64,000 bases of DNA from Stenotrophomonas sp. NA06056 (GTDB lineage: Bacteria; Pseudomonadota; Gammaproteobacteria; Xanthomonadales; Xanthomonadaceae), in the NCBI RefSeq assembly GCF_013364355.1, contig NZ_CP054931.1, positions 3,286,001 to 3,350,000 on the forward strand. Reading direction: 5' to 3'. This document shows positions 1 to 17,662 of the stretch, piece after piece. Position 1 is the stretch's first letter. Each line of letters opens with the position of its first letter. A program made the position numbers and the translations under genes. Below the pieces are notes generated by a model. It did not search any database. It worked only from the letters and a program-made list of their open reading frames with translations, and had not been told where the DNA came from.

Positions 1-298
1 CGCGCTGAACGCCACCAACAGCGAACACGAGCCGATCTCGCCGATCGCCGAGCTGATCGACCGCCACTTCGACTGGTCGTTGCCCGCCGAGCACCGCAGC
101 ACACCCTATCGCGCCACCGAAATCGCCCTGGCAGTGGGCATCGACAAACCCAACCGCCGCGACGTCAACGAGGCAGCGGCCTACGTGGTCAAGCGCCATG
201 ACGTACGCACCAAGCTGATCGGCAAGGAACGGGCGAAGGTGTGGCTGATGCCACCGCGCAAGCGCAGCGCTACCGATCACGCGGCCGGACCGTTCTGA
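1..298 (+). CDS. 3' end of a phage primase/helicase-like replication gene (partial)
   Basis: An open frame runs from the left edge of the window to a TGA at 296-298, giving the last 98 residues of a protein whose start lies outside. The visible part is basic and ends in a segment with a winged-helix look (residues around NRRDVNEAAAYVVKRHDVRT), such as closes many phage DUF5906/P4-type primases. That assignment is from general resemblance only. The TGA overlaps the ATG of the next gene (ATGA), so the two are translationally coupled. It shows that the tail cluster to the right is attached to phage replication-type genes. Confidence 0.5.
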   Translation, partial: ALNATNSEHEPISPIAELIDRHFDWSLPAEHRSTPYRATEIALAVGIDKPNRRDVNEAAAYVVKRHDVRTKLIGKERAKVWLMPPRKRSATDHAAGPF

Positions 299-582
299 TG
301 CCGCGAATCCACGACGGACGCGATGTCGAAAGCGGCAGCGCCGACTGGCGTCTGGACTGCGAGGCACGGCACCTGCTGGGACTGGACGGCTACACCTGCA
401 TCGACGCGCGCGGACACTGGATCAGGATTGGCCCCCGCCGGCATCGCCAGCAGTACCTCCAGCGCGTGCTTGCGGCACGTGGCCCGGCCGAACGCGATCG
501 ACTGGCAGCAGCTGCGCTGCGGATCTGGGAGGCAACAGCCCCTGCCCCCCAAAATGAGACGCAAGTAGATGAAAGGTGTTGA
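298..582 (+). CDS. Small phage protein of unknown function
   Basis: This encodes 94 residues. The ATG at 298 overlaps the stop of the upstream gene by one base, which decides the start over a GTG at 241. The protein is charged and rich in Arg and Ala, with a predicted helical C-terminal half (residues about 45-80, RQQYLQRVLAARGPAERDRL). It resembles small accessory proteins found in prophages of xanthomonads, but no function can be assigned. Its last codons overlap the first copy of a 23-bp repeat (563-585) that looks like a promoter for the next gene. Confidence 0.55.
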   Translation: MPRIHDGRDVESGSADWRLDCEARHLLGLDGYTCIDARGHWIRIGPRRHRQQYLQRVLAARGPAERDRLAAAALRIWEATAPAPQNETQVDERC

Positions 583-585
583 CTG
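563..585 (+). promoter_or_regulatory. 23-bp repeat, copy 1, with -35-like TTGACT
   Basis: An exact 23-bp direct repeat is shared with 2288-2310. It contains AAAGGTGTTGACTG. The TTGACT at 579-584 is a good sigma70 -35 element, and 17 bases downstream lies CAAGAT (602-607), an acceptable -10. The gene at 645 would be the first one transcribed. The bases just before TTGAC resemble those at the tRNA-Val promoter near 17690 (AAAAGGTGTTGACG), which supports a promoter role. Operator function is inference. Confidence 0.55.
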
Positions 586-644
586 GAGGCGTCTACAAAG
601 GCAAGATGCGGGTAACGGCCATGCCACCTTCCAGGAGCCCAGCC

Positions 645-872
645 ATGCCTCGCGCCCGCCTGCACGCCTTCGAGGGCGAACAGCTGACCGTGCAGCAGAT
701 ACATCAGCGCGTACCCGTTCTGTCCCAGCGGACCATCCGCGACCACCTCGCTGCGGGCCGCCGCACGTCCACGGCCATGCTGTGCTTCGACCCCATCGCC
801 GCCGCCGCACGCGGTGGCCGCATCACCCAGCGCATCCTGCGCACCCGCAGCAGCACGGGCAGCGATTGCTGA
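645..872 (+). CDS. Small helix-turn-helix-like phage protein
   Basis: This encodes 75 residues. The ATG at 645 was chosen because AGGAG (633-637) lies 7 bases upstream; in-frame ATGs at 606 and 621 lack this. Residues about 14-35 (LTVQQIHQRVPVLSQRTIRD) read like a helix-turn-helix, so it may bind DNA as a regulator within the element. It is the first gene after the 23-bp promoter-like repeat. No family can be named with confidence, and a role in repression or activation is only inferred from size and position. Confidence 0.5.
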   Translation: MPRARLHAFEGEQLTVQQIHQRVPVLSQRTIRDHLAAGRRTSTAMLCFDPIAAAARGGRITQRILRTRSSTGSDC

Positions 873-913
873 CTGCCGCCGCGCCTGCGCATTCCCCCAG
901 GAGTAGATACCGC

Positions 914-1450
914 ATGATCCCCGCCTCGCTCGACAGCAGCCAGCGCATGTTTGCCGACACACTGGCCGCGTTCCGCTACGGTTCCGCCTTTGGGAGCGCA
1001 CCGCTACGATCCCCGCCGTTGACGCGGCCACCGCTGTATATCGGCATCGCCGGTGGCAAGGGCGTGGGCAAGGACACCCTCGCCAATGGGTTGGCCTCTG
1101 CGCTTGCGCTGCCCTGCGACAGCTTCGCTGCCCGTCTGCGGCAAGGTGCCAGCACCGAAGGGACGCGCGAGCACGTCCATCCGGAGCTATGGATACGCTC
1201 GTTGTTCTCGCGCCTGCCCGACGGCGGCCTGGTTCCCGATGTCCATTCCACTGAAGAGGCCCGCGCCATCCGCCGCCAGGGTGGCGTTGTGATCCGCATC
1301 ACCCGTCCAGGCTGCGACGGCATCGACCTGCAGGCCGGTGGCCAGCCGCTGCCTGCCACGCTGGTCGATATCGAGCTGCACAACGACCGCAGCCCGGCTG
1401 ATCTGGTGCGCGTTGCACTGGACCAGTTGATGTGCCGTGGTGTGGTCTGA
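914..1450 (+). CDS. Phage deoxynucleoside monophosphate kinase-like P-loop protein
   Basis: This encodes 178 residues, with AGGAG (899-903) ahead of the ATG. Residues 43-58 carry a Walker A motif, GGKGVGKDT (47-55). The Lys-Asp-Thr ending is typical of phage dNMP kinases, which phosphorylate dNMPs to supply precursors for phage DNA synthesis. A first strand (LYIGIAG) leads into it. The N-terminal 40 residues are low-complexity and may be a tether. Such an enzyme fits a replicating phage rather than a particle that carries no DNA, so it may be a relic or may have another P-loop function. Fairly sure of the P-loop, less sure of the substrate. Confidence 0.6.
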   Translation: MIPASLDSSQRMFADTLAAFRYGSAFGSAPLRSPPLTRPPLYIGIAGGKGVGKDTLANGLASALALPCDSFAARLRQGASTEGTREHVHPELWIRSLFSRLPDGGLVPDVHSTEEARAIRRQGGVVIRITRPGCDGIDLQAGGQPLPATLVDIELHNDRSPADLVRVALDQLMCRGVV

Positions 1451-1617
1451 GCGCTCTGCAGCAACCGCGCCCGCGGCACGCCCAAGCCCTCCCCTTTTTC
1501 ATCCGCAACGCAGGTTCCGGCCCATCATCGGCGAAAATGATGTAAGGTCGTCCCCCATCAACGACGGCACCTGCCGTCACCCTGCATCCCCAACCGCTTT
1601 CGCAGAGAGGAAATGTC

Positions 1618-2001
1618 ATGGAGGTCGAACAGTTCACGTCGACACGCCAGAAGGCCATCGCGTTGTTCAAGTCGCAGCCCAAGGGTGGCAAGGACATCGT
1701 GAGTCTGGATGCGATCTTCATTTCACTGTGCTCGCTGGCCAACGCCCAGCCCGAAGCCGCTGCCGCCAAGCAGGCGCGTACCGCCGCCCGCCCAGGCAAC
1801 CAGCAGCCCCCTGCACCGTGGTTCATCGAAACGCTGGCTGCGCTCAAGGGCAAGGGCGAGTCGATCACCGTGGCACGCTTCCTGATGTTCGCCAACCGTT
1901 TCCCGGTCAAGCGCATGGACCAGGTCAATGCAGCCCGCTGGCTGCGTGATGCCGGCTACATCCCGCGCAAGACCGGCGGCAACCTGGTGTTCGACCTTTG
2001 A
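1618..2001 (+). CDS. Conserved hypothetical phage protein
   Basis: This encodes 127 residues with a purine-rich ribosome site (GAGAGGAA) before the ATG. The N-terminal part is helical. The C-terminal 45 residues (RFLMFANRFPVKRMDQVNAA, then WLRDAGY) look like a winged-helix segment of the kind found at the ends of phage primases and VapE-like proteins. No catalytic motif is seen. A strong terminator follows directly (2023-2055), so it closes the first operon of the element. The 167 bases before it hold a short inverted repeat (CATCAT 1523-1528 / ATGATG 1537-1542) that could be an operator. Function unknown. Confidence 0.55.
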   Translation: MEVEQFTSTRQKAIALFKSQPKGGKDIVSLDAIFISLCSLANAQPEAAAAKQARTAARPGNQQPPAPWFIETLAALKGKGESITVARFLMFANRFPVKRMDQVNAARWLRDAGYIPRKTGGNLVFDL

Positions 2002-2022
2002 TCCAGCACCACCAGCAGTCCT

Positions 2023-2055
2023 GAAGCCCCGGCATCGTCCGGGGCTTCTTCGTTT
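2023..2055 (+). terminator. Rho-independent terminator
   Basis: A 10-bp perfect stem GAAGCCCCGG (2023-2032) / CCGGGGCTTC (2039-2048) has a 6-base loop and is followed by TTCGTTT. It separates the early small genes from the activator-lysis-tail operon. Confidence 0.85.
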
Positions 2056-2339
2056 CAGGGCCCGGTGCACCCGGCACGAGGATCGCCCCCTTGGCCGTCC
2101 TCACCCTGTACCTGCCGTCTCCCCTTGTCCTGTCGTTGTTTCCAGCAGATGAGGACGAGGAGTACTGGAGAACCAGCAGAACCATAGGCAACACGGGGTA
2201 GCAAAGCATGCGCATCGCTAGCCGGCGCATGCACGTCCTCGGTGGTCCTCACGCAGGCATCTGAACGCCTTCAGTGGGCGACACTTGAAGTAGATGAAAG
2301 GTGTTGACTGATCTCGCGGGATGGCAACAGTGGATACCA
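2056..2339. promoter_or_regulatory. Control region upstream of the activator-lysis-tail operon
   Basis: These 284 bases carry no convincing gene. They contain an 8-bp perfect inverted repeat, GCATGCGC (2206-2213) / GCGCATGC (2225-2232), with an 11-base spacer centred on an NheI-type palindrome, which is the layout of a dimeric repressor or activator site. Copy 2 of the 23-bp repeat follows at 2288-2310 with its TTGACT core. No strong -10 lies at 17 bases from it, which would suit an activator-dependent promoter. Function is inferred from architecture alone. Confidence 0.5.
2288..2310 (+). promoter_or_regulatory. 23-bp repeat, copy 2, before the Mor-like activator gene
   Basis: This is identical over 23 bp to 563-585; the flanks differ at once on both sides. 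TTGACT is at 2304-2309. The nearest -10-like sequences (TGGATA at 2331-2336) are badly spaced. It ends 30 bases before the activator ATG at 2340. Confidence 0.55.
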
Positions 2340-2789
2340 ATGCCACTGCCCAACCTTGCCATGAACGCCCTGCCCGACAGCATCCAGACCCTTGCCGAGG
2401 TCATCGGCGAAACCGCAGCCCTCACGCTGGTGCGTGCATGGCCGCCAACAACCACCAGCAGCACGGGACGCCACCGCGTCATCGTCTACGTCCCCGCCAC
2501 CCTGCCCGATCAGCATCGGCTGATCGACATTCTCGGCCGGGACGTGGCGCAGCGCCTGGTCGCGCACTTCGGAGGCGAACTGCTGTTCCCGGCGTCCTGC
2601 TTCGCCGCCAGTGCACATGAGCGCCGCGAGCAGATCGCCCGGGCCGTGGCCAGCGGCATGCCCCGCGAGCACATCGCGCAGGAGTTCGGCGTATCGCAGA
2701 CCACCATCAAGCGCGCCGTCCGCGGTGCCCGCTCCACCCCGGTCCCGGCCGTCCATCCTGCCCTGCTGAAGGGATACGCGCGCGCATGA
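2340..2789 (+). CDS. Mor/C-family transcription activator
   Basis: This encodes 149 residues from the ATG at 2340; ATG 2361 is an alternative, and GTG 2301 lies inside the 23-bp repeat and is unlikely. The protein has the two-part layout of Mu Mor/C activators. An N-terminal dimerisation part (LPDSIQTLAEVIGETAALTL, then a beta strand and FGGELLF-like segment) is followed by a C-terminal helix-turn-helix at about residues 94-128 (IAQEFGVSQTTIKRAV). Mor and C activate middle and late Mu promoters. Here the gene directly precedes and overlaps (ATGA) the lysis genes, so it probably switches on the lysis and tail genes and possibly itself. The target site is unknown. Confidence 0.75.
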   Translation: MPLPNLAMNALPDSIQTLAEVIGETAALTLVRAWPPTTTSSTGRHRVIVYVPATLPDQHRLIDILGRDVAQRLVAHFGGELLFPASCFAASAHERREQIARAVASGMPREHIAQEFGVSQTTIKRAVRGARSTPVPAVHPALLKGYARA

Positions 2790-3136
2790 ACGAGACCGAC
2801 CTTCTGGCCGGCGTGCCGGACTGGGCGAAGTACCTCGGCGGCACCTCCGGGGTACTGATCGCCGTTTCATTGTGGCTGCGGCAATGGTTGTCGTCGGCCA
2901 AGGTCGACCGCACCGCCGATGAAGCCACCAGCAACACCCTGCGCACCCTGCAGGAACAGCTGGCTGCCGAGCGTACGCGTGCCGATGGACTGATGCACGA
3001 ACGCGAGGCCATGGCCCAGGAGATCGGCCAGCTGCGCGGTGAAGTCAGCGCCCTGCGCGCACAGATCGCGCAGCAGAGCGTGCAGATTGATGCGCTGCTG
3101 GACCTGGTGCGCAAACGGTCGGGAGCAGCCGCATGA
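2786..3136 (+). CDS. Putative holin: one membrane segment plus coiled coil
   Basis: This encodes 116 residues and overlaps the activator gene by 4 bases and the endolysin gene by 4 bases. One hydrophobic segment at about residues 17-36 (YLGGTSGVLIAVSLWLRQWL) is followed by a long charged heptad-like region (about 45-110) that should form a coiled coil. Position directly before an endolysin and spanins suggests a holin or a holin regulator that permits endolysin release and so particle escape. A single span plus long coiled coil is not the classical holin shape, so the call rests mainly on context. Confidence 0.55.
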   Translation: MNETDLLAGVPDWAKYLGGTSGVLIAVSLWLRQWLSSAKVDRTADEATSNTLRTLQEQLAAERTRADGLMHEREAMAQEIGQLRGEVSALRAQIAQQSVQIDALLDLVRKRSGAAA

Positions 3137-3618
3137 CCGCCGCCGCAGCCAGCGCCCTCGGTGGCGCCAACGTGGCCGCGTTCCTGGACATGCTGGCCGT
3201 ATCCGAAGGCACCGACATTCCCAGCCAGCGCTCCCGCAATCGCGGCTACGACGTGATCGTCGGTGGCCAGCTGTTCAATGACCAGCGCGACCACCCGCGC
3301 GTACTGGTGTCGCTGCCACGTTACGGAATCAAGTCCAGCGCCGCCGGCCGCTACCAGTTCCTGCGCAGCACCTGGGACGACCTGCGTGCACGCCTGGACC
3401 TGCCGGACTTCGGCCCGGTCTCGCAGGACCGCGCAGCGGTGGCACTGCTCAAGCAGTGCGGCGCCTACGATCTGATCCGTCTGGGCCGCTTCGATGCCGC
3501 TGTCGCCGCCGCGCGGCGCATCTGGGCCTCGCTGCCGGGCGCCGGTTACGGGCAGAAGGAGCATGCACTGGAAACGCTGCGCGCCGCCTATCGCGCCGCT
3601 GGCGGGCGCATGCAGTGA
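3133..3618 (+). CDS. Endolysin, lambda R-type GH104 muramidase/transglycosylase
   Basis: This encodes 161 residues. It closely follows the lambda R family: FLDMLAVSEGTD with the catalytic Glu at residue 25, then GYDVIVGGQLFND and an AAGRYQF block, and a C-terminal IWASLPGAGYGQ. These enzymes cleave the MurNAc-GlcNAc bond of peptidoglycan to lyse the producer. No signal peptide is present, so release needs a holin. It overlaps the holin candidate by ATGA and the i-spanin by one base, so the lysis genes form one translationally coupled block. Length is normal for the family. Confidence 0.9.
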   Translation: MTAAAASALGGANVAAFLDMLAVSEGTDIPSQRSRNRGYDVIVGGQLFNDQRDHPRVLVSLPRYGIKSSAAGRYQFLRSTWDDLRARLDLPDFGPVSQDRAAVALLKQCGAYDLIRLGRFDAAVAAARRIWASLPGAGYGQKEHALETLRAAYRAAGGRMQ

Positions 3619-3992
3619 TGCCGATGCCGCTGAGGCTGCGCATCGTGCTGCTGGGACTGCTTGCCAGCCACGCGAGCTGCGCCTGGCTGGGCTGGGCGTT
3701 CCGCGATCGCAGCGCGGATCTCGCCGCCGCCAGCGTGCAGGTCACGCAGCAGACGGCACGAGCGGACGCAGCGCATGCCGCACGCCAGCAGGCCCACACC
3801 AACACACAGGCCGGCGTACGCGCTGAATCACAGCGCCTGGTCACGCAGTCCGCGCGCACCCGGCAGTTCAACACGCTGCAACAGGACATCGACACCCATG
3901 CCAAGAATTCTGTCCGCGACCGTGGCGATGCTGATGCTGAGTTCGTGCGCATCTGGCGCGAAGCCAATGCCGGCCGCCCTCTTCCTCCCTGA
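3618..3992 (+). CDS. i-spanin (Rz-like)
   Basis: This encodes 124 residues. The ATG at 3618 overlaps the endolysin TGA. A single N-terminal membrane anchor (about residues 5-27, LRIVLLGLLASHASCAWLGW) is followed by a long alanine- and glutamine-rich helix, as in Rz proteins. It should sit in the inner membrane and join the o-spanin to fuse inner and outer membranes at the end of lysis. The o-spanin frame starts inside this gene, the classical nested arrangement. Sequence identity to Rz is not claimed; topology and context decide. Confidence 0.75.
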   Translation: MPMPLRLRIVLLGLLASHASCAWLGWAFRDRSADLAAASVQVTQQTARADAAHAARQQAHTNTQAGVRAESQRLVTQSARTRQFNTLQQDIDTHAKNSVRDRGDADAEFVRIWREANAGRPLPP

Positions 3993-4245
3993 TCTCAGCA
4001 TTGCACCGGCACAACTGCGTGCGCCGCAGGAACTGCCCGATCTACAGACCGCCGACGATGACGCGCTGCTGCGCAACCACGTTGCCGTCGCGCGCCAGTA
4101 TCACGAACTGGCCGATCAGATGCGCGCGCTGCTGTGCAGCCTCGGCAGCCAGCAAGGCTTCACCGTCAATGGTGCACCACCGCTGGCGCCTGCTGGCTGC
4201 ACGCCGGCAGGCAACACCCGCGATCACCCACCGCACCCGCGCTGA
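3898..4245 (+). CDS. o-spanin lipoprotein (Rz1-like), nested start in the i-spanin gene
   Basis: This encodes 115 residues from the ATG at 3898, in the +1 frame relative to the i-spanin and overlapping its last 95 bases. A short signal peptide ends in a lipobox (MLMLSSC, with the modified Cys at residue 17). The mature protein would be an outer-membrane lipoprotein that contacts the i-spanin. It is longer than minimal Rz1 proteins and has a Pro-rich C-terminus. The 119 bases after it carry no gene that can be supported. Confidence 0.7.
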   Translation: MPRILSATVAMLMLSSCASGAKPMPAALFLPDLSIAPAQLRAPQELPDLQTADDDALLRNHVAVARQYHELADQMRALLCSLGSQQGFTVNGAPPLAPAGCTPAGNTRDHPPHPR

Positions 4246-4364
4246 TCGCGCCAGTCGCGGCCACGCGTGCAATGCCCCGCGCCCTTGGCGATGGCAACAC
4301 TGCATGCAGAAAACGCGTGCCGCGGCCAGCCGCGTTCTTCCTTCCATTCATCGCATGAGCTGAC

Positions 4365-4919
4365 ATGGCAACCGACACTTCCTCCACCATCCTCGACGCG
4401 CTTCACGCCGCCATTGAAGCGGCGATCCGGACACAGTTCGCGGACTTCGCGACCGTAGAGTTCTATCGCGACGCCAACACCGGCGCCCTGCCCACGCCCG
4501 CCTGCCTGCTGGCCATGACCCGATGCGACCGTGGCAAGGACAGCGATGACGGCACCGGCCAACTGCAGGCCGTGCTGCGGTTCGAAGCTCGCATCTCCGT
4601 GCAGTCCGCCGCAGCCGGCTCTGCTCTGCAGCTGCGCAGGGCTGCTGTAGCCCTGACCACCTGGCTGCATCAGCTCGGCCGCTTTCCCGGAGTGCCAAGT
4701 GGCGCGATCGGGGTGATCGCGGCGCTGCCCGAGGATGCCGCAGCGGCACAGCCCGATCTGCGCACCTGGGTCGTTGAATGGTCACTGCCCGTCGCGCTCG
4801 GCGGCAACGCCTGGGAGGACACCGATGGCGTCGTTCCACAGGCCTCCTACAGCTTCTCACCGGAGATCGGCCAGGCACACGAGCCCCGCTACCAACCGCT
4901 TGCCGAGAACACGCCATGA
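4365..4919 (+). CDS. Phage tail protein upstream of gpV (function unassigned)
   Basis: This encodes 184 residues. It starts at ATG 4365 and overlaps gpV by ATGA. The sequence has the alternating strands and helices of small tail-completion or terminator proteins (middle part LQAVLRFEARISVQ...LRRAAVALTTWL, a helix-strand pattern), but no firm family can be named. In R-type pyocin clusters an uncharacterised gene sits in the same place directly before the gpV homologue, so this is probably its counterpart. A tail-tube terminator role would fit because no other candidate is present. Inference only. Confidence 0.55.
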   Translation: MATDTSSTILDALHAAIEAAIRTQFADFATVEFYRDANTGALPTPACLLAMTRCDRGKDSDDGTGQLQAVLRFEARISVQSAAAGSALQLRRAAVALTTWLHQLGRFPGVPSGAIGVIAALPEDAAAAQPDLRTWVVEWSLPVALGGNAWEDTDGVVPQASYSFSPEIGQAHEPRYQPLAENTP

Positions 4920-5506
4920 GCGCTGAACACGCTCGTTTGATCGGCAACCTGTTGATGATCGGCGTCGTGCGCGAACTCGATGAAGCCGAAAGCCGCGTGC
5001 GCGTCGACGCCGACGGGATGCTCACCGACTGGATTCCCTGGCTGGAACGCCGTGCCGGACCAGGCATGCGCAGCTGGTGCGCACCGGAGCCCGGTGAACA
5101 GGTGGTGCTGGCCTGCCCGTATGGCGACCCCGGCCAGGCCGTGGTGCTGGGCAGCCTGTACCAGGATCGTTTTCCCGCACCGGCCGATGCGCGCCTGCTG
5201 CAGCGCACGCAGTACGCCGACGGCAGCCTCGTCGAGTACGACCGCGAAACCACCACGCTGACCATCAGCGTCGGCACCGGCAAGGTCATCGTCAACTGCG
5301 CCAGCGCAGAAGTACATGCCAGCGAATCGGTGCTGCTCGACACACCGTCGATCAAGGCCACCGGCGACCTGGACGTCACCGGTGCAATCACAGCAGGCAA
5401 GGACATCAGTACCTCGGCAGACATCAAGGCCGGTGCCATCAGCCTGAAGGCACACAAACACACCGCCCAAGGCCCGACTGCCCCGACCACACCGGCACAG
5501 CCGTGA
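4916..5506 (+). CDS. V: Baseplate assembly protein V (tail spike tip)
   Basis: This encodes 196 residues. The N-terminal OB-fold-like part (residues about 8-85, IGVVRELDEAESRVRV ... PGEQVVLACPYGDPGQAVVLG) and a C-terminal repetitive strand region (LDVTGAITAGKDISTSADIK) match P2 gpV, the trimeric needle that pierces the outer membrane on contraction. The C-terminal HKH (in LKAHKHTAQG) is the His-x-His that binds iron at the tip in P2/phi92-type spikes. A polar Pro/Thr tail follows. It is translationally coupled to the gene before. Confidence 0.9.
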   Translation: MSAEHARLIGNLLMIGVVRELDEAESRVRVDADGMLTDWIPWLERRAGPGMRSWCAPEPGEQVVLACPYGDPGQAVVLGSLYQDRFPAPADARLLQRTQYADGSLVEYDRETTTLTISVGTGKVIVNCASAEVHASESVLLDTPSIKATGDLDVTGAITAGKDISTSADIKAGAISLKAHKHTAQGPTAPTTPAQP

Positions 5507-5558
5507 TGGGCCATCGCTGCAATGCCCTGAAAAACCGTACTCCACGACGATAGAGACC

Positions 5559-5897
5559 ATGCGAGGAATCGACGCCAACACCGGCAAATCACTGGATGGG
5601 CTGGCCCATCTGCACCAATCCGTGCGTGACGTTCTCACCACGCCCCTTGGCTCCCGGGTACTGCGCCGCGAGTACGGCTCGCGCATCTTCGAACTGATCG
5701 ATGCGCCCACCAACCGCTCGCTGCGCATGGACCTGATCGCGGCCACCGTCGACGCACTCGCGCGATGGGAACCGCGACTGCACGTCGAGAACGTCGACGT
5801 CTCCCTCCCCGCCCCCGGCGTGATGATCCTGGCAGTGACCGGGATCCACCTGCCGGACGGCGAGGCCATCACCATCGAAGGAATCGAGGTTCGCTAA
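5559..5897 (+). CDS. W: Baseplate assembly protein W (gp25-like)
   Basis: This encodes 112 residues, normal for the GPW/gp25 family. Landmarks are the early LHQSVRDVLTTPLGSRVLRR and the EYGSRIFELIDAP segment. The conserved EYGS-type motif belongs to gp25-like baseplate wedge proteins, whose fold starts sheath polymerisation on the baseplate. It lies between V and J, the order of P2 and R-pyocins. The start at ATG 5559 leaves a 52-base gap after V. The next gene begins two bases after its stop. Confidence 0.92.
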   Translation: MRGIDANTGKSLDGLAHLHQSVRDVLTTPLGSRVLRREYGSRIFELIDAPTNRSLRMDLIAATVDALARWEPRLHVENVDVSLPAPGVMILAVTGIHLPDGEAITIEGIEVR

Positions 5898-5899
5898 CC

Positions 5900-6796
5900 G
5901 TGGCATCCGGCTCGTTCACCAGTGTCAATCTCTCCCAGCTGCCGGCCCCGGCGGTCATCGAAGTGCTCGATTTCGAAGCCATGTTCGATGAATCACTGAC
6001 GGCATTGCAGGCGCTGGACCCCACGTTCGACGCGCTGCTGCCGTCGGATCCCGCCTTCAAGATCCTTGAAGTCTGCACCTACCTGCGCCTGCTCGACCGA
6101 CAGCGCGTCAACGATGCCGCGCGCGGCGTGATGCTGGCCTACGCCGTGGGCAGCGACCTCGATCAGCTCGCGGCGATCTTCGGCATTGCTCGCCTGGTAC
6201 TTGATCCGGGCAAGCCACAGGAGGGCATCCTTCCCCGCTACGAGAACGACGAGGACTTCCGTCGCCGCATCCAGCTTGGCCCGGAAGGCTTCAGCGTTGC
6301 GGGGCCGGAGGGCGCCTATGTATTCCATGCACTGAGCGCGGATCCGCGTGTGCTGGACGCCAGCGCCACCAGCAGCACGCCGGGTGAGGTGGTGGTGTCG
6401 GTGCTCTCGCGCGAAGCCGACGGCACTGCTACCCAGGGCCTGCTCGATGTGGTCGAGGCGAAGCTGAGCGCGGATGACGTGCGCCCGCTGACCGATCACG
6501 TGCTGGTGAAGCCGGCGAGCATCATCAACTACGCCGTCGCCGCCACGCTGTACACCTTCGCCGGCCCGGATTCGCAGGTCGTGTTGGCAGAAGCGCGCAC
6601 ACGCCTGGACCGCTACATCGTCGAATCGCATCGACTCGGCCGTGACGTGACCCGCTCCGGGTTGTTCGCCGCATTGCATGCCGAAGGCGTACAGCGCGTG
6701 GTGATCGACAGCCCCGCTGCGGACGTAGTGGTGGACCGCACCCAGGCCACGTACTGCACCGCGGTGACGCTGGCCCACGGTGGCAACGATGAGTGA
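5900..6796 (+). CDS. J: Baseplate protein J
   Basis: This encodes 298 residues from a GTG two bases after the W stop, with GAGG upstream; no ATG is suitably placed. It matches P2 gpJ. The N-terminal FEAMFDESLTAL...LLPSDPAFKILEVCTYLRLL block is followed by GSDLDQLAAIFG and a long central region, typical of baseplate_J wedge proteins that link the hub to the fibres. It overlaps the I gene by 8 bases. Length is normal. Confidence 0.92.
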   Translation: MASGSFTSVNLSQLPAPAVIEVLDFEAMFDESLTALQALDPTFDALLPSDPAFKILEVCTYLRLLDRQRVNDAARGVMLAYAVGSDLDQLAAIFGIARLVLDPGKPQEGILPRYENDEDFRRRIQLGPEGFSVAGPEGAYVFHALSADPRVLDASATSSTPGEVVVSVLSREADGTATQGLLDVVEAKLSADDVRPLTDHVLVKPASIINYAVAATLYTFAGPDSQVVLAEARTRLDRYIVESHRLGRDVTRSGLFAALHAEGVQRVVIDSPAADVVVDRTQATYCTAVTLAHGGNDE

Positions 6797-7568: not shown

Positions 7569-7575
7569 ACCCCGC

Positions 7576-9681: not shown

Positions 9682-9682
9682 T

Positions 9683-10342: not shown

Positions 10343-10404
10343 TCGATTACCGGGCCACGGCTGCAATTATCGCCGCCGTCGCCTTTTCCGAAGATATACA
10401 CGTC

Positions 10405-10420
10405 GCCTGCATCTGCAGGC
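10405..10420 (+). promoter_or_regulatory. Hairpin in the leader of the sheath gene
   Basis: The inverted repeat GCCTGC (10405-10410) / GCAGGC (10415-10420) has an ATCT loop and lies 28 bases before the sheath ATG, inside a 106-base gap. It follows TATACA (10395-10400), a possible -10 with no good -35. It may stabilise a sheath-tube mRNA that must be made in excess. Confidence 0.35.
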
Positions 10421-10448
10421 ACACCACCACACCGAGGAACCTCTCCGA

Positions 10449-11651
10449 ATGACCGATTTTCTCCATGGCGTACAGGTCGTCAACATCGACACCGGTGCCC
10501 GCTCGATCGCCGTCGCATCCACCAGTGTGATCGGCATCGTCGGCACCGCACCGCTGGCTGACGCCGACGCATTCCCCATCAACACCCCCGTCCTGGTGAC
10601 CTCGCTGTCGCAGGCGGCCAAGCTGTCGGCCAAGCCCGGCACCGAAGCCGGCACCCTGCCGGGCGCACTGGATGCGATCTTCGACCAGTCGTCGGCGGTC
10701 GTGGTCGTGATCCGCGTCGAGAGCGGCGCCTCCGACAGTGCCACCCTGGCCAATGTCCTGGGCGGCGTGAACGCACAGACCGGCGCGTACTCCGGCGTGC
10801 ACGCACTGCTCGCGGCCAAGTCCATCGTCGGCGTGAAGCCGCGCATCCTGCTGGCACCGGGCTTCACCCACGTGCACCCGGCCGACCCGGCCAGCCCGGA
10901 CACCGTGCTGGCCAACCCGGTCGTCGCCGAGCTGCTCGGCATCGCTGACAAGCTGCGCGCGATCATCATCAAGGATGGCCCGAACAGCAACGATGATGCC
11001 GCCAAGACCAGCACCGCACTGACCGGCTCCAAGCGCGTTTACGTGGTCGACCCGGCCGTACTGGTGCAGCAGGGTGAAGCGATCATCAGCCGCTACGCCT
11101 CGGGTGCCGTGGCCGGCGCCATCGCACGCAGCGACAACGAACGCGGCTGGTGGGCGTCGCCGTCCAACCAGGAGCTGTACGGCATCGTCGGCACGGCACG
11201 TGCGATCGACTTCGGCCTGTCCGATGCGACCAGCCGCGCCAACCTGCTGAACCAGGCCAACGTGGCGACCATCATCCGCGAAGGTGGCTTCCGCCTGTGG
11301 GGCAACCGCACCGCCAGCATCGATCCGAAATGGCAGTTCCTGTGCGTGGTGCGCACCGCCGACATCATCGCTGACAGCCTGGAGGCTGCCCACCTGTGGG
11401 CCGTCGACCGCGGCATCAGCAAGACCTACGTCGATGACGTGCGTGAGGGCGTCAATGCCTTCCTGCGTGACCTGAAGACGCAGGGCGCGATCCTCGGTGG
11501 CAACTGCTGGATCGACCCCGAACTGAACGCAGCGGACAGCGTGGCCCAGGGCCGCTTCTACTGGGACTTCGACTTCACCCCGACCTATCCGGGTGAGCAG
11601 CTGACCTTCCGCATGCACATGAACAACAACTACGTCTCGGAGATCTTCTAA
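10449..11651 (+). CDS. FI: Contractile tail sheath protein (FI)
   Basis: This encodes 400 residues, normal for P2 FI-type sheaths. Landmarks are N-terminal FLHGVQVVNIDTGARSI, the VIGIVGTAP strand, central RYASGAVAGAIARSDNERGWWASPSN, and the C-terminal FYWDFDFTPTYPGEQLTFRM. Many copies wrap the inner tube and contract to drive it into the target cell. The tube gene follows after two bases. Strong codon bias and the leader hairpin fit high expression. Confidence 0.95.
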   Translation: MTDFLHGVQVVNIDTGARSIAVASTSVIGIVGTAPLADADAFPINTPVLVTSLSQAAKLSAKPGTEAGTLPGALDAIFDQSSAVVVVIRVESGASDSATLANVLGGVNAQTGAYSGVHALLAAKSIVGVKPRILLAPGFTHVHPADPASPDTVLANPVVAELLGIADKLRAIIIKDGPNSNDDAAKTSTALTGSKRVYVVDPAVLVQQGEAIISRYASGAVAGAIARSDNERGWWASPSNQELYGIVGTARAIDFGLSDATSRANLLNQANVATIIREGGFRLWGNRTASIDPKWQFLCVVRTADIIADSLEAAHLWAVDRGISKTYVDDVREGVNAFLRDLKTQGAILGGNCWIDPELNAADSVAQGRFYWDFDFTPTYPGEQLTFRMHMNNNYVSEIF

Positions 11652-11653
11652 GC

Positions 11654-12157
11654 ATGGCGCGCAAGATCCGCAAGAACTTCAACTTCTACGTCGACGGCAA
11701 GGGCTTTGCCGGCAGCGTGATGTCCTTCACCGCCCCGAAGCTGTCGCTGAAGACCGAGGACTTCCAGGCCGGCGGCATGCTCGCCCCGACCGAGATCGTA
11801 CTCGGCCACGACAAGCTGACCGCCGAGGTTACCTTCGCTTCCGATGACGCGGAGATCATGTCCAAGTTCCACGTCATCGAGAGCAAGGAGTACGGCTTCA
11901 CCGCCCGCGAGGCGCTGGAAGCCGACGATGGCTCGGTCACCTCGGTCGTGCACAACATGCGCGGCAAGGTGAAGACCCTCGACCGCGGCGAAACCAAGGT
12001 CGGCGAGAAGGGCACGGTCAAGGTCTCCCTGGCACTGAGCTACTACAAGCTGACCCATGGCGTGCAGGTCGTGCAGGAGATCGACGTGACCAACATGATC
12101 GCCCGCCAGGGCGGCGTGGACGCACTGGCCGGCATCCGCGGCGCCCTGGGCATCTGA
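11654..12157 (+). CDS. FII: Major tail tube protein (FII)
   Basis: This encodes 167 residues. MARKIRKNFNFYVDGKGFAG at the start and the segment LSLKTEDFQAGGMLAPTEI mark the P2 FII family. It polymerises into the inner tube that is pushed through the envelope of the target. It is paired with the sheath gene two bases upstream, as always in this family. A GC-rich hairpin (12183-12201) follows. Confidence 0.95.
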   Translation: MARKIRKNFNFYVDGKGFAGSVMSFTAPKLSLKTEDFQAGGMLAPTEIVLGHDKLTAEVTFASDDAEIMSKFHVIESKEYGFTAREALEADDGSVTSVVHNMRGKVKTLDRGETKVGEKGTVKVSLALSYYKLTHGVQVVQEIDVTNMIARQGGVDALAGIRGALGI

Positions 12158-12182
12158 TCCCCGGCACCGCTTCGACGTACAC

Positions 12183-12201
12183 GGGGGCGCACAGCGCCCC
12201 C
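12183..12201 (+). terminator. GC-rich hairpin after the tube gene (attenuator or mRNA stabiliser)
   Basis: A perfect 8-bp stem GGGGGCGC / GCGCCCCC has a 3-base ACA loop. There is no T-run, so full termination is unlikely. It probably lowers read-through into the low-copy E/T genes or protects the sheath-tube mRNA. Confidence 0.6.
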
Positions 12202-12240
12202 GGATCCACCGCATCTCCATCGACATCCGGGAACACATCC

Positions 12241-12531
12241 ATGTCCAGCAAGACCAAGACCAGCGCCGACACCGTCATCGAACGCGACGGCTATGCCGAA
12301 ATCACCCTTTCCCGCCCGCGCCAGGTCAATGGCGTGGACACCGCCGTGCTGCGCATGCGCGAACCGACCGTGGAAGACATGGAGCGCTACCAGGACGACA
12401 AAGGCACTGACGCCCAGCGCGAAGTACGCATGATCGCCAACCTGTGCGAGATCGCACCGGATGACGTGCGAAAGATGCCGCTGCGCGACTACGCCCGCCT
12501 GCAGGCCGGCGTCGCGCTTTTTACCACCTGA
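12241..12531 (+). CDS. E: Tail assembly chaperone gpE
   Basis: This encodes 96 residues of the P2 gpE/Mu gp41-like tail assembly family (VNGVDTAVLRMREPTVEDME ... EIAPDDVRKMPLRDYARLQ). It coats or guides the tape measure protein during tail assembly. Near its end the codons GCG CTT TTT ACC (12514-12525) form a T5 slip site, and a -1 shift there enters an open frame that gives the E' extension. Two products in a fixed ratio are the rule in this family. Confidence 0.88.
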   Translation: MSSKTKTSADTVIERDGYAEITLSRPRQVNGVDTAVLRMREPTVEDMERYQDDKGTDAQREVRMIANLCEIAPDDVRKMPLRDYARLQAGVALFTT

Positions 12532-12662
12532 CCCTGCCGCAGATCAGGCAGGGAGCGCTCGCCCTGGCCGGCCACACCGGCTGGAGCCTGCGCGAGATCA
12601 TGACGCTGCGGGTGTCGAAGTTCATCTGGTGGATACAGGGATTGCCGGTACATGGCGAGTAA
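12516..12662 (+). CDS. E': E' extension of gpE made by -1 frameshift
   Basis: After a -1 shift at the T-run 12518-12522 the frame continues as FYHLTLPQIRQGALALAGHT, then GWSLREIMTLRVSKFIWWIQ, to a TAA at 12660-12662. The WSLREI...L...ELxxW-like pattern is the hallmark of E' in P2-type phages. The fused product is about 140 residues. The frame lacks a good start of its own. It overlaps the start of the tape measure gene by 11 bases, as in P2. Seen directly in the sequence; the frameshift itself is established for this family. Confidence 0.85.
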   Translation, partial: AFYHLTLPQIRQGALALAGHTGWSLREIMTLRVSKFIWWIQGLPVHGE

Positions 12663-15093
12663 CGTTCAAACGACAACGATCACGATCGGCGGCTCGGTTT
12701 CCCGGTCGTTGCAGGACGCATTGGCCTTCAGCAACGATGGCCTGAAGCGCCTCGGCGATGAAGCCGACAAGCTCGAGCGCAAGCTGAGCGTGATGGGCAG
12801 GCAGAGCAACGCGTTCACCCGCATGCGCGCCGAGGCCGATGCGTTGCGCGCTTCCCAGGAGGCGCTGCAGCGGATCGAAGACAAGCGCACCGCGAATCTG
12901 GAGAAGCGCGAGAAGCTGGGTTCGGCCTTCGGCGATGCGCGCGGCATGCTCGGCAGCGCGATCAGCACGCTGGCCAAGCCGGTGGAAAATGCCGCTGAAT
13001 TCGCGAGCGGCAACCAGGCCATCGGCGCCGCCGCCAACCTGACCCGCGCGCAGGTCAAGGCGCTGGGCGAGACCATCCTGGCCGAGTCCAGCCGCACCTA
13101 CCAGGGCGCCGGCGAACTGCAGCGTGCCATCAGCCAGCTGGTCGGCGCCGGTCTCGATGCACAGACCGCACAGGCCAGCCTCGGGGCAATCGGACGCACC
13201 ACCACCGCCACCGGCGAGAGCATCGAAGATGTCAGCCTGGCCGCCTCCGGCCTGCAGCAGGCGCTGAAGATCGATGCCAGCGGCCTGCAGTCGGCGCTGG
13301 ATGTGCTGATTGTGGCCGGCAAGGATGGCGGCGTGGGCCTGAAGGACATGGCCGGCGCGTTGCCTGTGCTGGGCAGCGCCTTCCAATCGCTGCAGATGCA
13401 CGGCAACGCGGCCGCGGCCACCATGGGCGCTGCACTGGACGTCGCCCGGCAGGGAACCACCGGCGCCGACGAAGCCGCCGGCAACATGCAGCGCTTCATG
13501 GCCAGCATCCTCTCACCCGACCTGCAGGCCCGCGCCAAGAAGGGCTTCAAGCTGGACCTGCGCAGGATCATCAGCGAGGCGCAGAGCAGCGGCGGCAACC
13601 CGTTCGACGCAGCAATGCAGGGCATCATCCAGGCTACCGCGGGCGATCAGGCAAAGATCGGCAAGCTGTTCGGCGATGCGCAGGCGCAGAACTTCGTGCG
13701 CCCGATGATCCAGAACTGGGACGAGTACACCCGCGTCCGCGACAAGGCACTGTACGCATCGGCAGGTACCACCGATGCCGGCTTCGCAGCGAAGATCCAG
13801 ACCGATCCAGAGAAGATCGAAGGCGCGAAGATCGCCGTGGACAACCTGTCCAAGGCCTTCGGTGCCGCGCTGTTGCCAGCGGTGGGCGAAGCGGCCGTGA
13901 AGCTGACCGAACTGCTGAACGGCGTTGCGTCGTTCGTGCAGGAGAACCCGAAGCTGATCGCCAATACCACCCAGGTCGTGGTCGGCTTGATGGGCATGCG
14001 CACCGCTGTGCTCGGCGTGCGCTACGCCTGGACGTTCCTGCAGGGCCCGATCCTGGCGGTGCAGAAGGCCTTCGAGCTGGTCCGCGGCGGCAGCCTGCTG
14101 GCGCAGATGGGACAGTTCGGCCCCACTGCCATGCGCCTGGCGTCGGGCTTCCGCGTGGTCGCCACCGCCGTGGGCGCCATCGGAGGTGGTCCGATCACCG
14201 TGGCCATCGCCGCCATCACCGCCGGCGCACTGCTGGTGCGCAAGTACTGGGAGCCCATCAAGGCTTTCCTCGGTGGCGTCTGGGATGGCCTCAGCGGCGC
14301 AGGTTCCGCCGCCATGGATGAACTGATGCGTGCCGTGGAACCGTTGCGTCCGGCATGGGAAGCGGTCGGCGGGCTGTTGAGCCAGGCATGGGACTGGCTT
14401 TCCAGGATGCTGGCTCCTGCGCAGTACACCGGCAACGAACTTTCGCGCGTCGCGGAGATCGGCTCGCTGGTGGGCACGGCATTGCTGGCCAATTTCCGTC
14501 TGGTCATCCAGGTCGTCGGGGTTGTGGTTGAAGCCATCTCCCTCCTCGGTGATGCAATCGGTACGGTCGCTGGATTCATCTCCGTTACGTTGGGCGGCGT
14601 ATGGGACTGGATCTCCGAAAAGGCCACTGCAGCCATCGGCTACATCATGGCCGAGCTGGCACCGCTGATGACCTTCGTCGGCGGAGTGATGGACAAGGTC
14701 GGTGGCGTCCTTGGCATGGCCAAAGAGAAAGCCGTGGATGGTGCTCGCATGGCGGTGGGTGCGGCCAACGGCGCAGCCGCTGGCTACGCCGCCGTCAGGG
14801 ATGGCAAGGTCGCGATGCCACCCGTGCGCTTTGCCGTAGGTGGCTTGCACAGCGCCGTCGTGGAGCGCCGTGCACCTGGATTGCCCGCGCCGTCCCAGGG
14901 CCGCACCGCACCGCCGATGCCTGCCTCTTCCACCGCACGCGCGCCCGCCACTGTGCAGCAGCAACAGACCAACAACATCACCATCCACCAGCAACCGGGC
15001 GAATCCAGCGAGGCCTTGGCACGGCGGACCGCCAACGCCCTGCAGCACCAGCAGGCCGTGCAGGCCCGCGCCACTCTGGGAGACAGGAACTAA
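12652..15093 (+). CDS. T: Tail tape measure protein (T)
   Basis: This encodes 813 residues. A helical, Ala/Gln-rich N-terminal half (with LGDEADKLERKLSVMGRQSN) leads into the TP901-type core (EFASGNQAIGAAANLTRAQV) and hydrophobic segments around residues 490-530 and 600-660. The C-terminal tail is Pro/Ala-rich. Its length sets tail length, and it is packed inside the tube. It starts inside the E' frame, so translation is coupled. 813 residues suggests a tail in the range of P2 and R-pyocins. Confidence 0.93.
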   Translation: MASNVQTTTITIGGSVSRSLQDALAFSNDGLKRLGDEADKLERKLSVMGRQSNAFTRMRAEADALRASQEALQRIEDKRTANLEKREKLGSAFGDARGMLGSAISTLAKPVENAAEFASGNQAIGAAANLTRAQVKALGETILAESSRTYQGAGELQRAISQLVGAGLDAQTAQASLGAIGRTTTATGESIEDVSLAASGLQQALKIDASGLQSALDVLIVAGKDGGVGLKDMAGALPVLGSAFQSLQMHGNAAAATMGAALDVARQGTTGADEAAGNMQRFMASILSPDLQARAKKGFKLDLRRIISEAQSSGGNPFDAAMQGIIQATAGDQAKIGKLFGDAQAQNFVRPMIQNWDEYTRVRDKALYASAGTTDAGFAAKIQTDPEKIEGAKIAVDNLSKAFGAALLPAVGEAAVKLTELLNGVASFVQENPKLIANTTQVVVGLMGMRTAVLGVRYAWTFLQGPILAVQKAFELVRGGSLLAQMGQFGPTAMRLASGFRVVATAVGAIGGGPITVAIAAITAGALLVRKYWEPIKAFLGGVWDGLSGAGSAAMDELMRAVEPLRPAWEAVGGLLSQAWDWLSRMLAPAQYTGNELSRVAEIGSLVGTALLANFRLVIQVVGVVVEAISLLGDAIGTVAGFISVTLGGVWDWISEKATAAIGYIMAELAPLMTFVGGVMDKVGGVLGMAKEKAVDGARMAVGAANGAAAGYAAVRDGKVAMPPVRFAVGGLHSAVVERRAPGLPAPSQGRTAPPMPASSTARAPATVQQQQTNNITIHQQPGESSEALARRTANALQHQQAVQARATLGDRN

Positions 15094-15095
15094 GC

Positions 15096-15563
15096 ATGAA
15101 GCGCGAGTTTGTAACCGGCGCAGTAGACAAGCTGCTGTCGCAGTTCAAAAGCAATGACTCTGGCAACGCACCGGTACTGCTGATGCTGGGCGGCTTCAAG
15201 TTCAGCCTCAATACGGCTGTGTTCCAGCAGATCCAGCAGTCCAACGATTTCCGCTGGCAGGCCCAGGATCGCGTCGGGCAGATGGCTGCACTGCAGTACA
15301 CCGGCCCGGGCTCGGCCACCATGACACTGCCAGGCATTGTCTACCCGCTGTTCCGTGGCGCCGGCAACGAGATGTCGCAACTGCGCAAGCTGGCCAGCCA
15401 GGGAAAACCGCAGCGCCTGCTGACCGGCAAGGGTGGCAACCTGGGCCTGTGGGTCATCGAGAAAATCGATGTCACCTCCAGCGAGTTCACCGTCGACAGC
15501 CAGATCCAGAAGCAGGACTTCACACTCACTCTCCGGAAGCACAGCGATGGCACGAACGTATAA
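15096..15563 (+). CDS. U: Tail protein U
   Basis: This encodes 155 residues of the P2 gpU family. The N-terminal VLLMLGGFKFSLNTAVFQQI and the later FRWQAQDRVGQMAALQYTGP are typical. In P2 and pyocins gpU belongs to the late tail block and is needed for tail completion near the hub. The ATG lies three bases after the tape measure TAA, and the stop overlaps the X gene. Confidence 0.92.
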   Translation: MKREFVTGAVDKLLSQFKSNDSGNAPVLLMLGGFKFSLNTAVFQQIQQSNDFRWQAQDRVGQMAALQYTGPGSATMTLPGIVYPLFRGAGNEMSQLRKLASQGKPQRLLTGKGGNLGLWVIEKIDVTSSEFTVDSQIQKQDFTLTLRKHSDGTNV

Positions 15564-15762
15564 CACCCGCGACGGCGATGTCGTTGACCGCATTGCCTAC
15601 GCGCACTATGGCGAACAATCGCCGGCGATCCTGCGCGCGGTGTTCGATGCCAACCCGGGTCTGGCCGCGCGCGGCCCGGTGTTGTCAACCTCCATCGCCA
15701 TCACCCTGCCCGACGTACAGCGCCCGGCCGATGAACGAAAAGGAATCTCGCTGTGGAACTAG
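15547..15762 (+). CDS. X: Tail protein X (LysM-like)
   Basis: This encodes 71 residues. DGDVVDRIAYAHYG near the start and ANPGLAARGPVLSTSIAITLP later match gpX tail proteins, small LysM-like domains at the hub. It starts 17 bases inside U and ends 10 bases inside D. The order U-X-D is that of R-pyocins rather than P2 itself, where X lies elsewhere. Confidence 0.9.
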   Translation: MARTYNTRDGDVVDRIAYAHYGEQSPAILRAVFDANPGLAARGPVLSTSIAITLPDVQRPADERKGISLWN

Positions 15763-16826
15763 GAATCGAACCCGCATTCCGCGTGGTCGCCAACAGCCAG
15801 GACATCACCGACAAGGTGATGTCACGGTTCAAGTCGATGCGCATTACCGACGAAACCGGCAACAGCTCGGACACGCTGGAGCTGCAGTTGGCCGATCACG
15901 ATCCGGACGATCCGATCCAACTGCCGCCGGTGGGTGCAGAACTGGAAGCCTTCATCGGCTATGACGGCCAAGTGCGCCGCATGGGTCTGTACATCTGCAA
16001 TGAGCTGGAGATTTCAGGCTATCCCGGCAGCATGACCCTGCGAGCGCATGCGGCACCGTTCGAAGCCAGCAAGGGCGGCAAGAACGATCTGCAGACGCAG
16101 AAGACGCGCACGTGGAAAAAGGGTACCACGATCGGCGACATGGTCACGCGGATGGCAGCCGAACACGGTCTCATCGCGGCGGTGAGTCGTTCATTGGCAT
16201 CGGTGGTGCTGCCATTGACCGTACAGTCGCAGGAGTCGGACATGAACCTGCTGCTGCGCCTGTCCAAGCAGCACGACGCAATCGCCAAGCCAGGCGGCGG
16301 TCGACTGATGTTCGTCACGCGTGGCGACTCCACCAGCGCCAGCGGCGACGGCATCCCTCCTGTAACCCTCACACCGGCCGACGGCAGCAGCTACAAGGTA
16401 ACCATCACCACGCGCGACGATGCCGGCACCACCATCGCCTACTACCGCGACGTGCGTGGCGCGCAGCGCCAGGAAGTGAAGGTGGGCACCGGCGAGCCGA
16501 TCGTGCGCCTGCGCATGGCCTATGCCGACCGCGAAAGCGCCGAAGCCGCCGCCCGCGCCAAGCACCGCGAACAGGCGCGGCAGACGCGCAAACTGAGCTA
16601 CAGCCTTCCGGGGCGCGAGACATTGATGGCCGAGGCCACGGTGATCATGCAGGGCTTCCGCGATGGCGTGGATGGCGAGTGGCTGGTCAAGCGCGCCGAG
16701 CACAGCATCGGTAGTGATGGTTATCGCACCAGCATCGAGTGCGAACAACCCAACAGCGCCGAATCAGTGAAGGCCGCCAGCAACGCAGCGGTGAAGCAGA
16801 GCCCGCAGGTGGGCAGCGAAGTGTAG
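15753..16826 (+). CDS. D: Late control/hub protein D
   Basis: This encodes 357 residues from a GTG at 15753 that overlaps X. It matches the P2 gpD family (FRVVANSQDITDKVMSRFKS ... LELQLADHDPDDPIQLPPVG ... LSKQHDAIAKPGGGRLMFV), the baseplate hub on which the gpV spike sits. It is the last gene of the tail cluster; its TAG stop lies inside a SMAG palindrome. No lysozyme, integrase or capsid gene follows, so the element ends here or soon after. Confidence 0.93.
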   Translation: MELGIEPAFRVVANSQDITDKVMSRFKSMRITDETGNSSDTLELQLADHDPDDPIQLPPVGAELEAFIGYDGQVRRMGLYICNELEISGYPGSMTLRAHAAPFEASKGGKNDLQTQKTRTWKKGTTIGDMVTRMAAEHGLIAAVSRSLASVVLPLTVQSQESDMNLLLRLSKQHDAIAKPGGGRLMFVTRGDSTSASGDGIPPVTLTPADGSSYKVTITTRDDAGTTIAYYRDVRGAQRQEVKVGTGEPIVRLRMAYADRESAEAAARAKHREQARQTRKLSYSLPGRETLMAEATVIMQGFRDGVDGEWLVKRAEHSIGSDGYRTSIECEQPNSAESVKAASNAAVKQSPQVGSEV

Positions 16827-16896: not shown

Positions 16897-16908
16897 GCTC
16901 CTCGCACT

Positions 16909-17555: not shown

Positions 17556-17567
17556 CGTTCTGCAACA

Positions 17568-17642: not shown

Positions 17643-17662
17643 GGTGTGTTGCTGAGCCGCTC

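Follow-up and report, generated by a model that had tools for sequence, protein, structure and literature searches.

A maltocin-type R-tailocin of Stenotrophomonas related to Foxunavirus-type phages, with a conserved primase-helicase and an Acb2-like gene

The window analyzed here is a stretch of 64,000 nucleotides (G000:C1:3286001-3350000) from a Stenotrophomonas genome that consists of one 4.52-Mb contig. Judged by its genes, the locus at window 1-16826 makes up the right-hand five-sixths of a maltocin-type R-tailocin of ~20.0 kb, whose left start lies ~3.1 kb before base 1. The window was extended leftward by 54 kb, which gave a 118-kb stretch in all, and 17 empty chromosomal sites allowed us to estimate the element's borders near window positions -3113 and 16868, a span of 19,982 bases. 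An earlier note on this DNA had read the tailocin from base 1; the cluster does occupy 1-16826, but the element begins near -3113. The tail genes follow the order V-W-J-I-fibre-FI-FII-E/E'-T-U-X-D, with X between U and D as that note had described, and every one of them has a Pfam or PHROG match (Table 1). A plausible -1 E' reading frame continues from a CTTTTTA motif near 12518. The sheath, tube, baseplate, fibre, tape measure and lysis genes that characterize R-type tailocins were all found.

Table 1. Features of the element and its right flank, in window coordinates; positions with the prefix L003 lie left of the window, inside the element (aa, amino acids; ORF, open reading frame; HTH, helix-turn-helix)
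Feature	Position	Strand	Evidence and remarks
Acb2-like protein, 84 aa	L003:14984-15238	-
DksA-like Zn finger	L003:15250-15474	-
33-codon leader ORF	L003:15487-15588 (window -2513 to -2412)	-	directly before DksA-like gene
Palindrome, 12-bp arms	L003:15710-15739
Paired AAGGTG repeats	L003:15773-15789		noncoding region before primase
Primase/VapE-type helicase, 3' end	1-298	+	gene start L003:15962 (window -2038)
DUF7696 protein, 94 aa	298-582	+	PF24751 7.5e-12; 11/15 elements
Small protein, up to 98 aa, HTH-like by eye	576-872	+	phrog_27354 8e-47; 15/15 elements
Deoxynucleoside monophosphate kinase-like	914-1450	+	phrog_139 2e-20; Pfam DNMK 0.012, below cut-off
127-aa protein, shared with FoX5	1618-2001	+	phrog_23491 3e-78; 42% to FoX5 over residues 68-127
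Late transcriptional activator, Mor-like	2301-2789	+	phrog_836 8e-29; PF08765 Mor above cut-off
Holin candidate, 116 aa	2786-3136	+	phrog_2658 'hol-like' 3e-29
Endolysin, P28 type	3133-3618	+	phrog_90 1e-49
Rz inner spanin	3618-3992	+	phrog_1403 Rz-like 2.7e-5
Rz1-like lipoprotein, overlapping frame	within ORF 3661-4245	+	LPAM_1 weak, 0.014
Head-block junction	4246-4364	+	related phages hold terminase, portal, capsid, neck genes here (FoX5, ep3 order)
Tail terminator	4365-4919	+	46% to FoX5 9485-10015; Murka gene at that place annotated tail terminator
V, baseplate spike	4916-5506	+	PF04717, PF18715
W, gp25-like wedge	5559-5897	+	PF04965
J, baseplate wedge	5888-6796	+	PF04865
I	6780-7568	+	PF09684 7.6e-45
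Tail fibre, 701 aa	7576-9681	+	phrog_8443 4e-206; no Pfam match
Fibre-associated protein, 219 aa	9683-10342	+	phrog_11610 5e-89; 9/15 elements
FI, sheath, 405 aa	10434-11651	+	PF04984, PF17482; PA0622 pyocin sheath 1e-96
FII, tube	11654-12157	+	PF04985 4.5e-44; PA0623 1e-28
E, chaperone	12241-12531	+	PF10109
T, tape measure	12652-15093	+	phrog_28 2e-79; PF10145
U	15090-15563	+	PF06995 1.8e-32
X	15553-15762	+	PF05489 6.8e-15
D, baseplate hub	15753-16826	+	PF05954 1.9e-11
Two exact 23-bp palindrome repeats	16823-16845, 16874-16896	.	right border, element border near 16868
Tautomerase	16909-17286	-	right flank
tRNA-Val	17568-17642	-	right flank

The lysis genes precede the tail genes, in line with the earlier note, and comprise a holin-like gene, an endolysin and an Rz/Rz1-like pair at 2786-4245. 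The published forward primer for the endolysin of maltocin P28 matches the start of the endolysin gene with one mismatch, while shuffled sequences average 0.01 matches. The element also belongs to the same size class as the S. maltophilia maltocins (P28, 19,919 bp; S16, 19,658 bp; 23 ORFs; PMC8228603); its likeness to P28 was judged from this size and from the primer match. The endolysin has no Pfam match and no tblastn match in the phages FoX5, ep3 and Mano, and is matched at 65-66% in the IMG/VR contigs L208 and L209. The genes at the position of the holin candidate in ep3 and Mano are annotated as holins; the candidate itself gave no tblastn match in either phage and 49-62% matches in L208, L209 and the phage contig L211. 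FoX5 matches the Rz/Rz1-like pair at the same place. Upstream of this cassette, the true start of the activator probably lies downstream of 2301. PMC13393414 names ORF 01031 as a possible holin, with the endolysin there being ORF 01022; the 116-aa gene next to the endolysin is the better candidate, and it can be offered as such for the lysis pathway of maltocins that vesicle studies have addressed.

The absence of terminase, portal, capsid, head-tail connector and integrase genes that had been noted within the window also held in the leftward extension. FoX5 and Mano queries for terminase, head-tail joining, portal, capsid, head closure, neck, integrase, single-stranded DNA-binding protein (SSB), exonuclease, helicase and ParB gave no hits (E 1e-3) in the 118-kb stretch, nor in the 14 further elements and their immediate flanks described below. 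As controls, the 27 genes of the element and its flanks were all recovered, and every query detected at least the phage it came from. The negative for integrase applies to the Mano query alone. No head gene was detected by these queries in 53 viral loci (39 contigs), each encoding a close relative of either the primase or D, and the FoX5 terminase, portal and capsid had no match at E 0.001 in the element's own genome. Weak matches (24-36%) to these three proteins were seen at other loci in 4, 4 and 2 of the 15 carriers, respectively, including a capsid match in G085 that lies ~10 kb from the tautomerase gene and outside the element. The head and packaging genes of a complete Foxunavirus-type phage were thus not found at this locus. 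Many such tailocins are catalogued as viral contigs of ~19-22 kb in IMG/VR (the contigs behind L154-L206), one of which encodes a primase and a D protein that are 100% identical to those of the element.

Capsid-forming satellites are known, and their mirror image would be a satellite that encodes a tail and its own primase and borrows the head of a helper phage. The intact primase-helicase, activator and lysis genes, together with the failure to find head genes, are compatible with such an arrangement. However, we found neither a terminase nor, with the Mano query, the integrase or other mobility function expected of a satellite, the element occupies a single site in 15 of 15 carriers, and its own genome holds no Foxunavirus-type terminase, portal or capsid elsewhere. 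We regard a satellite as extremely improbable.

The comparison with other Stenotrophomonas genomes proposed in the earlier note was performed on 91 genomes, own included. The element is present in 15 of them, collinear and at one site. A primase match at E 1e-100 or better occurred in 15 genomes, and a sheath of at least 85% in exactly those 15; a more distant sheath was present in 8 further genomes (37-39%; 65% in G078), and in a first search weaker, partial primase matches were seen in 7 carriers and non-carriers among 61 relatives. Gene order was identical in all 15 elements; 4 of them lack DUF7696 and 6 lack the 219-aa fibre partner. Across the elements, omega (simple Nei-Gojobori) was 0.067 for the Acb2-like gene, 0.04 for the holin candidate, 0.08 for the endolysin, 0.14 for D, 0.18 for the sheath and 0.31 for the tape measure, compared with 0.12 for the flanking tautomerase. 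All genes fell within 0.04-0.32 with two exceptions, namely the fibre at 0.42 and the overlapping Rz1 frame, whose value of 0.67 is not meaningful. The first ~200 residues of the fibre are kept in all carriers while the remainder is hypervariable, and two length classes were observed: 655-733 aa with the 219-aa partner (9 elements) and 489-505 aa without it (6 elements). The tape measure diverges more than most element genes (62-93%).

These values bear on the possibility that the locus is a decaying prophage remnant that makes nothing. Such a remnant could well have lost its head, packaging and early replication genes, as seen here, and DUF7696 is indeed missing from 4 of the 15 elements. Yet omega remains low outside the fibre and the Rz1 frame, and the genes shorter than 90% of the reference length are the fibre in 6 elements, which carry the shorter type, and two instances each of the activator and the 98-aa gene, in which only the extended start differs. 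In addition, published maltocins are produced as particles (PMC13393414, PMC8228603). Decay was rejected on these grounds, and we consider a remnant highly improbable. The locus combines a full set of tail and baseplate genes including the terminator, a lysis cassette, a late activator, one site in all carriers and purifying selection. Taken together, its sequence indicates that it is very likely a domesticated headless phage, namely a contractile R-type tailocin of the maltocin type.

Which phage gave rise to this tailocin was addressed by tblastn comparison. The Foxunavirus phages FoX5 (from Xanthomonas) and Murka each match 21 of the 26 element genes, and the Jilinvirus ep3 (from E. coli) and the Manovirus Mano each match 16; once the FoX5 map is treated as circular, its gene order is that of the element. 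The sheath matches FoX5 and ep3 at 63-64%, and the primase matches them at 53% and 43%, respectively. In P2, the stretch 8000-24000 matches 9 element genes, and FoX5 scores higher in all 9; the sheath is at 37% to P2, and for tail terminator and E, matches were obtained in FoX5 and none in the P2 stretch, although P2 R and E lie there. This stretch is no test for the primase, the DksA-like gene and the activator because the P2 replication genes lie outside it. P2 parentage was rejected on the 9 shared tail genes. The letter order of the earlier note, which is that of P2-style and R-type clusters, stands as an order, whereas the nearest phages are Foxunavirus-type rather than P2. Being collinear with Foxunavirus, Jilinvirus and Manovirus phages and nearer to them in its tail than to P2, the element is classed as a derivative of these phages.

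The best supported interpretation of these sequence comparisons is a Foxunavirus/Jilinvirus-type phage minus its terminase-to-neck block and minus its exonuclease-helicase-ParB block. Foxunavirus-type phages carry the genes from terminase to neck as well as exonuclease, helicase, ParB, SSB and integrase, whereas the element gave no matches to these queries; furthermore, the FoX5 sheath has 479 aa with an insertion of ~70 residues, compared with 405 aa here. Both sides of the head-block junction can be followed in relatives. L208 and L209, whose primases match at 60-62%, encode primase, kinase, activator, holin, endolysin, Rz, Rz1 and, directly after Rz1, the small terminase, which represents the terminase side. 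On the neck side, the G078 prophage L148 runs from portal, capsid, head closure, neck1 and tail terminator through V on to D. The order in L211 is SSB, Acb2-like, DksA-like, exonuclease, helicase, ParB and primase, and because this gene order matches, the left end of the element can be read as the L211 map minus the exonuclease-to-ParB block. Maltocins would thereby gain a likely parent in Foxunavirus-type phages, and a tailocin can be what remains after loss of the head block and some early genes. At the nucleotide level, megablast of window 1-17700 against phages gave no match. L148 itself (G078:C1:972001-992000) is a prophage of the Foxunavirus type that encodes both head and tail, its portal being at 66% and its capsid at 58% to FoX5; the stretch read excludes the terminase side of the prophage.

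The R2 pyocin of Pseudomonas aeruginosa has a contractile tail whose sheath and tube are homologous to those of the element, and V-W-J-I-fibre-FI-FII-E-T-U-X-D is what we take to be the pyocin gene order. A tailocin of the R-pyocin lineage would account for this P2-style order and for the sheath match of 1e-96, and the R-pyocin cluster was compared through sheath and tube alone, not gene by gene, which leaves this lineage some room. The sheath values for FoX5/ep3 and P2, the higher FoX5 score in each of the shared tail genes and the FoX5 matches of tail terminator and E all point elsewhere, so that a pyocin lineage seems quite improbable to us. Compared with the R2 pyocin, the element keeps a phage primase, an activator and spanins upstream of its tail genes.

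The left part of the element carries genes that are unexpected in a tailocin. The primase-helicase has 778 aa, the last 98 codons of which lie inside the window, and is recognized by the Pfam VapE-like_dom (2e-48) and Toprim_3 models and as a DNA primase by phrog_2249 (4e-191). It is intact in 15 of 15 elements with an omega of 0.10; its ATG lies at the same place in 14 elements by script and in the fifteenth, G080, by alignment. The residues that we take to be the Toprim E and DxD and the helicase GKT motifs are invariant or nearly so over 37 phage-type primases. In the introduction of PMC13195805, tailocins are said to have neither capsid nor replication genes; this description fits the element in its capsid part but not in its replication part, and retention of an intact primase gene sets it apart from the usual tailocin. 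For maltocins, the main text of PMC13393414 (2026) contains no occurrence of the word primase and calls typical phage enzyme genes absent, whereas the element carries both a primase-helicase and an Acb2-like gene. The same paper describes this cluster in K279a and 44/98 as devoid of capsid genes and as inducible by ciprofloxacin. In the literature we found no report of a tailocin primase, of a tailocin with a gene against the cyclic-oligonucleotide-based anti-phage signalling system (CBASS), or of a link between Foxunavirus and tailocins, although the P28 description may mention them. As a tailocin the element is ordinary, and its sequence is surprising in its parentage, its conserved primase-helicase and its Acb2-like gene.

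The region around the primase start shows further conserved features. The region of ~490 bp that separates the start codon of the DksA-like gene from that of the primase holds conserved blocks, and within this region lies a palindrome whose right arm is exact in 9 of the 15 elements; the paired AAGGTG repeats were observed in the own element. The leader ORF has a strong ribosome-binding site, is found in all 15 elements and has a conserved, FSIGATTPR-like C-terminus. Palindrome, repeats and leader region are candidates for a control region (operator) or an origin. No Rfam match for a structured RNA was obtained in L003:14800-16100 up to E 1, and at gathering thresholds the tRNA was the sole Rfam match in window 1-20000. 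In the 98-aa gene, the true start is probably further in, as two relatives have a stop codon ahead of it. To the left of the Acb2-like gene follow a 144-aa ORF with no PHROG match and then a TonB receptor gene.

All 15 elements carry the Acb2-like gene. A profile built from seven relatives matched the PDB p26 chains (8ixz, 8h2j) over nearly the whole length with E 1.1e-7, the next PDB match being at 0.007; 8h2j is titled Acb2 in the Foldseek result. Six of the seven members match the Pfam Acb2/Tad1 hairpin model (best E 6e-5), while the element's own protein, with a score of 20.4, stays below the cut-off of 27. For L047, a close relative, an AlphaFold2 model (mean predicted local distance difference test score 89) had Acb2 structures as its top four Foldseek hits (E 0.013-0.023; template modelling score 0.79-0.82), with unrelated helical bundles coming close in a second aligner, and the fifth hit was T4 Vs.4, described in complex with cyclic GMP-AMP. 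Homology to the anti-CBASS sponge Acb2 (8h2j, 8h2x) is therefore well supported by the sequence and extends over the chain, yet the two proteins are only ~28% identical, and the sponge function is a prediction. If the protein does work in this way, tailocin production could itself be a target of the antiviral defences that the cell carries. According to a review (PMC12043709), Acb2 acts at induction and not in the maintenance of lysogeny. PADLOC assigned no family to the 5 proteins tested. If genes are counted from ORF 01022, the endolysin, ORF 01031 of PMC13393414 may be the Acb2-like gene.

Both proteins could also be passengers that are kept by their place in the regulatory part of the operon. 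In favour of this, counterparts of both lie at matching places in L211. Against it speak their omega values and the Toprim and GKT positions kept as in the phage-type primases; low omega and kept motifs argue for selection on the proteins themselves. We hold the passenger explanation to be possible, though somewhat doubtful.

For the tailocin reading, the following course of events would apply. DNA damage by fluoroquinolones or mitomycin would switch the cluster on, as suggested by published maltocins, and the Mor-like activator, by analogy with phages, would turn on the lysis and tail operons. Tails would be assembled to a length set by T and released upon cell lysis, to which the endolysin would contribute; released tails may then bind a target cell through the variable fibre, contract and depolarize it. 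DNA-free particles that are released after DNA damage and kill related strains were reported for P28, S16 and 44/98 (PMC13393414, PMC8228603), and maltocin proteins were raised by ciprofloxacin in S. maltophilia 44/98 (PMC13393414). In addition, the primase-helicase might amplify the locus upon induction, and at the time when phage-like genes are on, the Acb2-like protein might sequester cyclic-nucleotide alarm signals. A maltocin that runs such a streamlined phage programme, with DNA amplification for yield and Acb2-type disarming of the producer's defences, at a weapon hotspot shared with effectors of the type IV secretion system (T4SS), is a speculative extension that we rate as unlikely.

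Several points weigh against the tailocin reading or its extensions. Killing and induction by DNA damage are presumed for this strain by analogy with the published maltocins, and no repressor or SOS box was identified in the element. A primase is not required for a tail particle, which leaves its conservation unexplained and raises the question of why a cell should retain, in a headless weapon, a primase-helicase of phage type together with an anti-CBASS-like gene. Five of the 26 genes (Acb2-like, 98-aa gene, kinase, holin candidate and endolysin) had no tblastn match in FoX5; each of them matches in L208, L209 or L211. When the 15 genomes were compared in pairs, the distances of element genes and flanks correlated only moderately (r 0.20-0.85), a sign that parts have been exchanged between strains. 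The lysine that we take to be a ligand residue of Acb2 aligns with no lysine here. SMODS (CBASS) genes were present in 3 of 15 carriers and 7 of 76 other genomes, and a search of the own genome for SMODS-type CBASS genes found none; a self-defence role of the Acb2-like protein finds no support in this pattern of co-occurrence.

All 15 elements sit between the tautomerase gene and the TonB receptor gene, with a spacing of 20.3-21.1 kb. The tautomerase and the tRNA do follow to the right of the element, as the earlier note had stated, but the former is not strictly core, given that 50 of the 91 genomes match it (E 0.001). A close tautomerase (at least 83%) beside a close TonB gene was found in 39 of the 91 genomes: 15 with the element, 17 empty with 8-96 bp between the flank anchors, and 7 with ~1.87 kb; this census excludes G109 and G078 (TonB gene 79%, other arrangement) and genomes with no close TonB gene. 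Palindromic GTAG repeats are present at the element borders. The border palindrome, presumably of the SMAG/REP type, occurs in 9 copies with at most 3 mismatches in the window and in none of the shuffles. The border repeats were rejected as an attachment (att) site, and we claim no attachment core, because they belong to this repeated palindrome and 13 of the 17 empty sites keep a copy.

In 7 of the 39 genomes (L141-L147: G010, G077, G017, G036, G097, G008, G086), the ~1.87-kb insert replaces the tailocin at the tautomerase-TonB gap. The insert of G010 encodes a protein with the T4SS effector domain PF20410, above cut-off, and counterparts are encoded in all 7 inserts (88-100% identical; the other six 88-96%). 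A lipoprotein-like gene adjoins the effector gene in the 7 inserts (69-100%; in two pieces in G008), and we assume that the two may form an effector-immunity pair as in known X-T4SS pairs. Should the lipoprotein confer immunity, this position in the chromosome would hold alternative antibacterial weapons in different genomes, and by its gene content the tautomerase-TonB site looks like a hotspot for such weapons.

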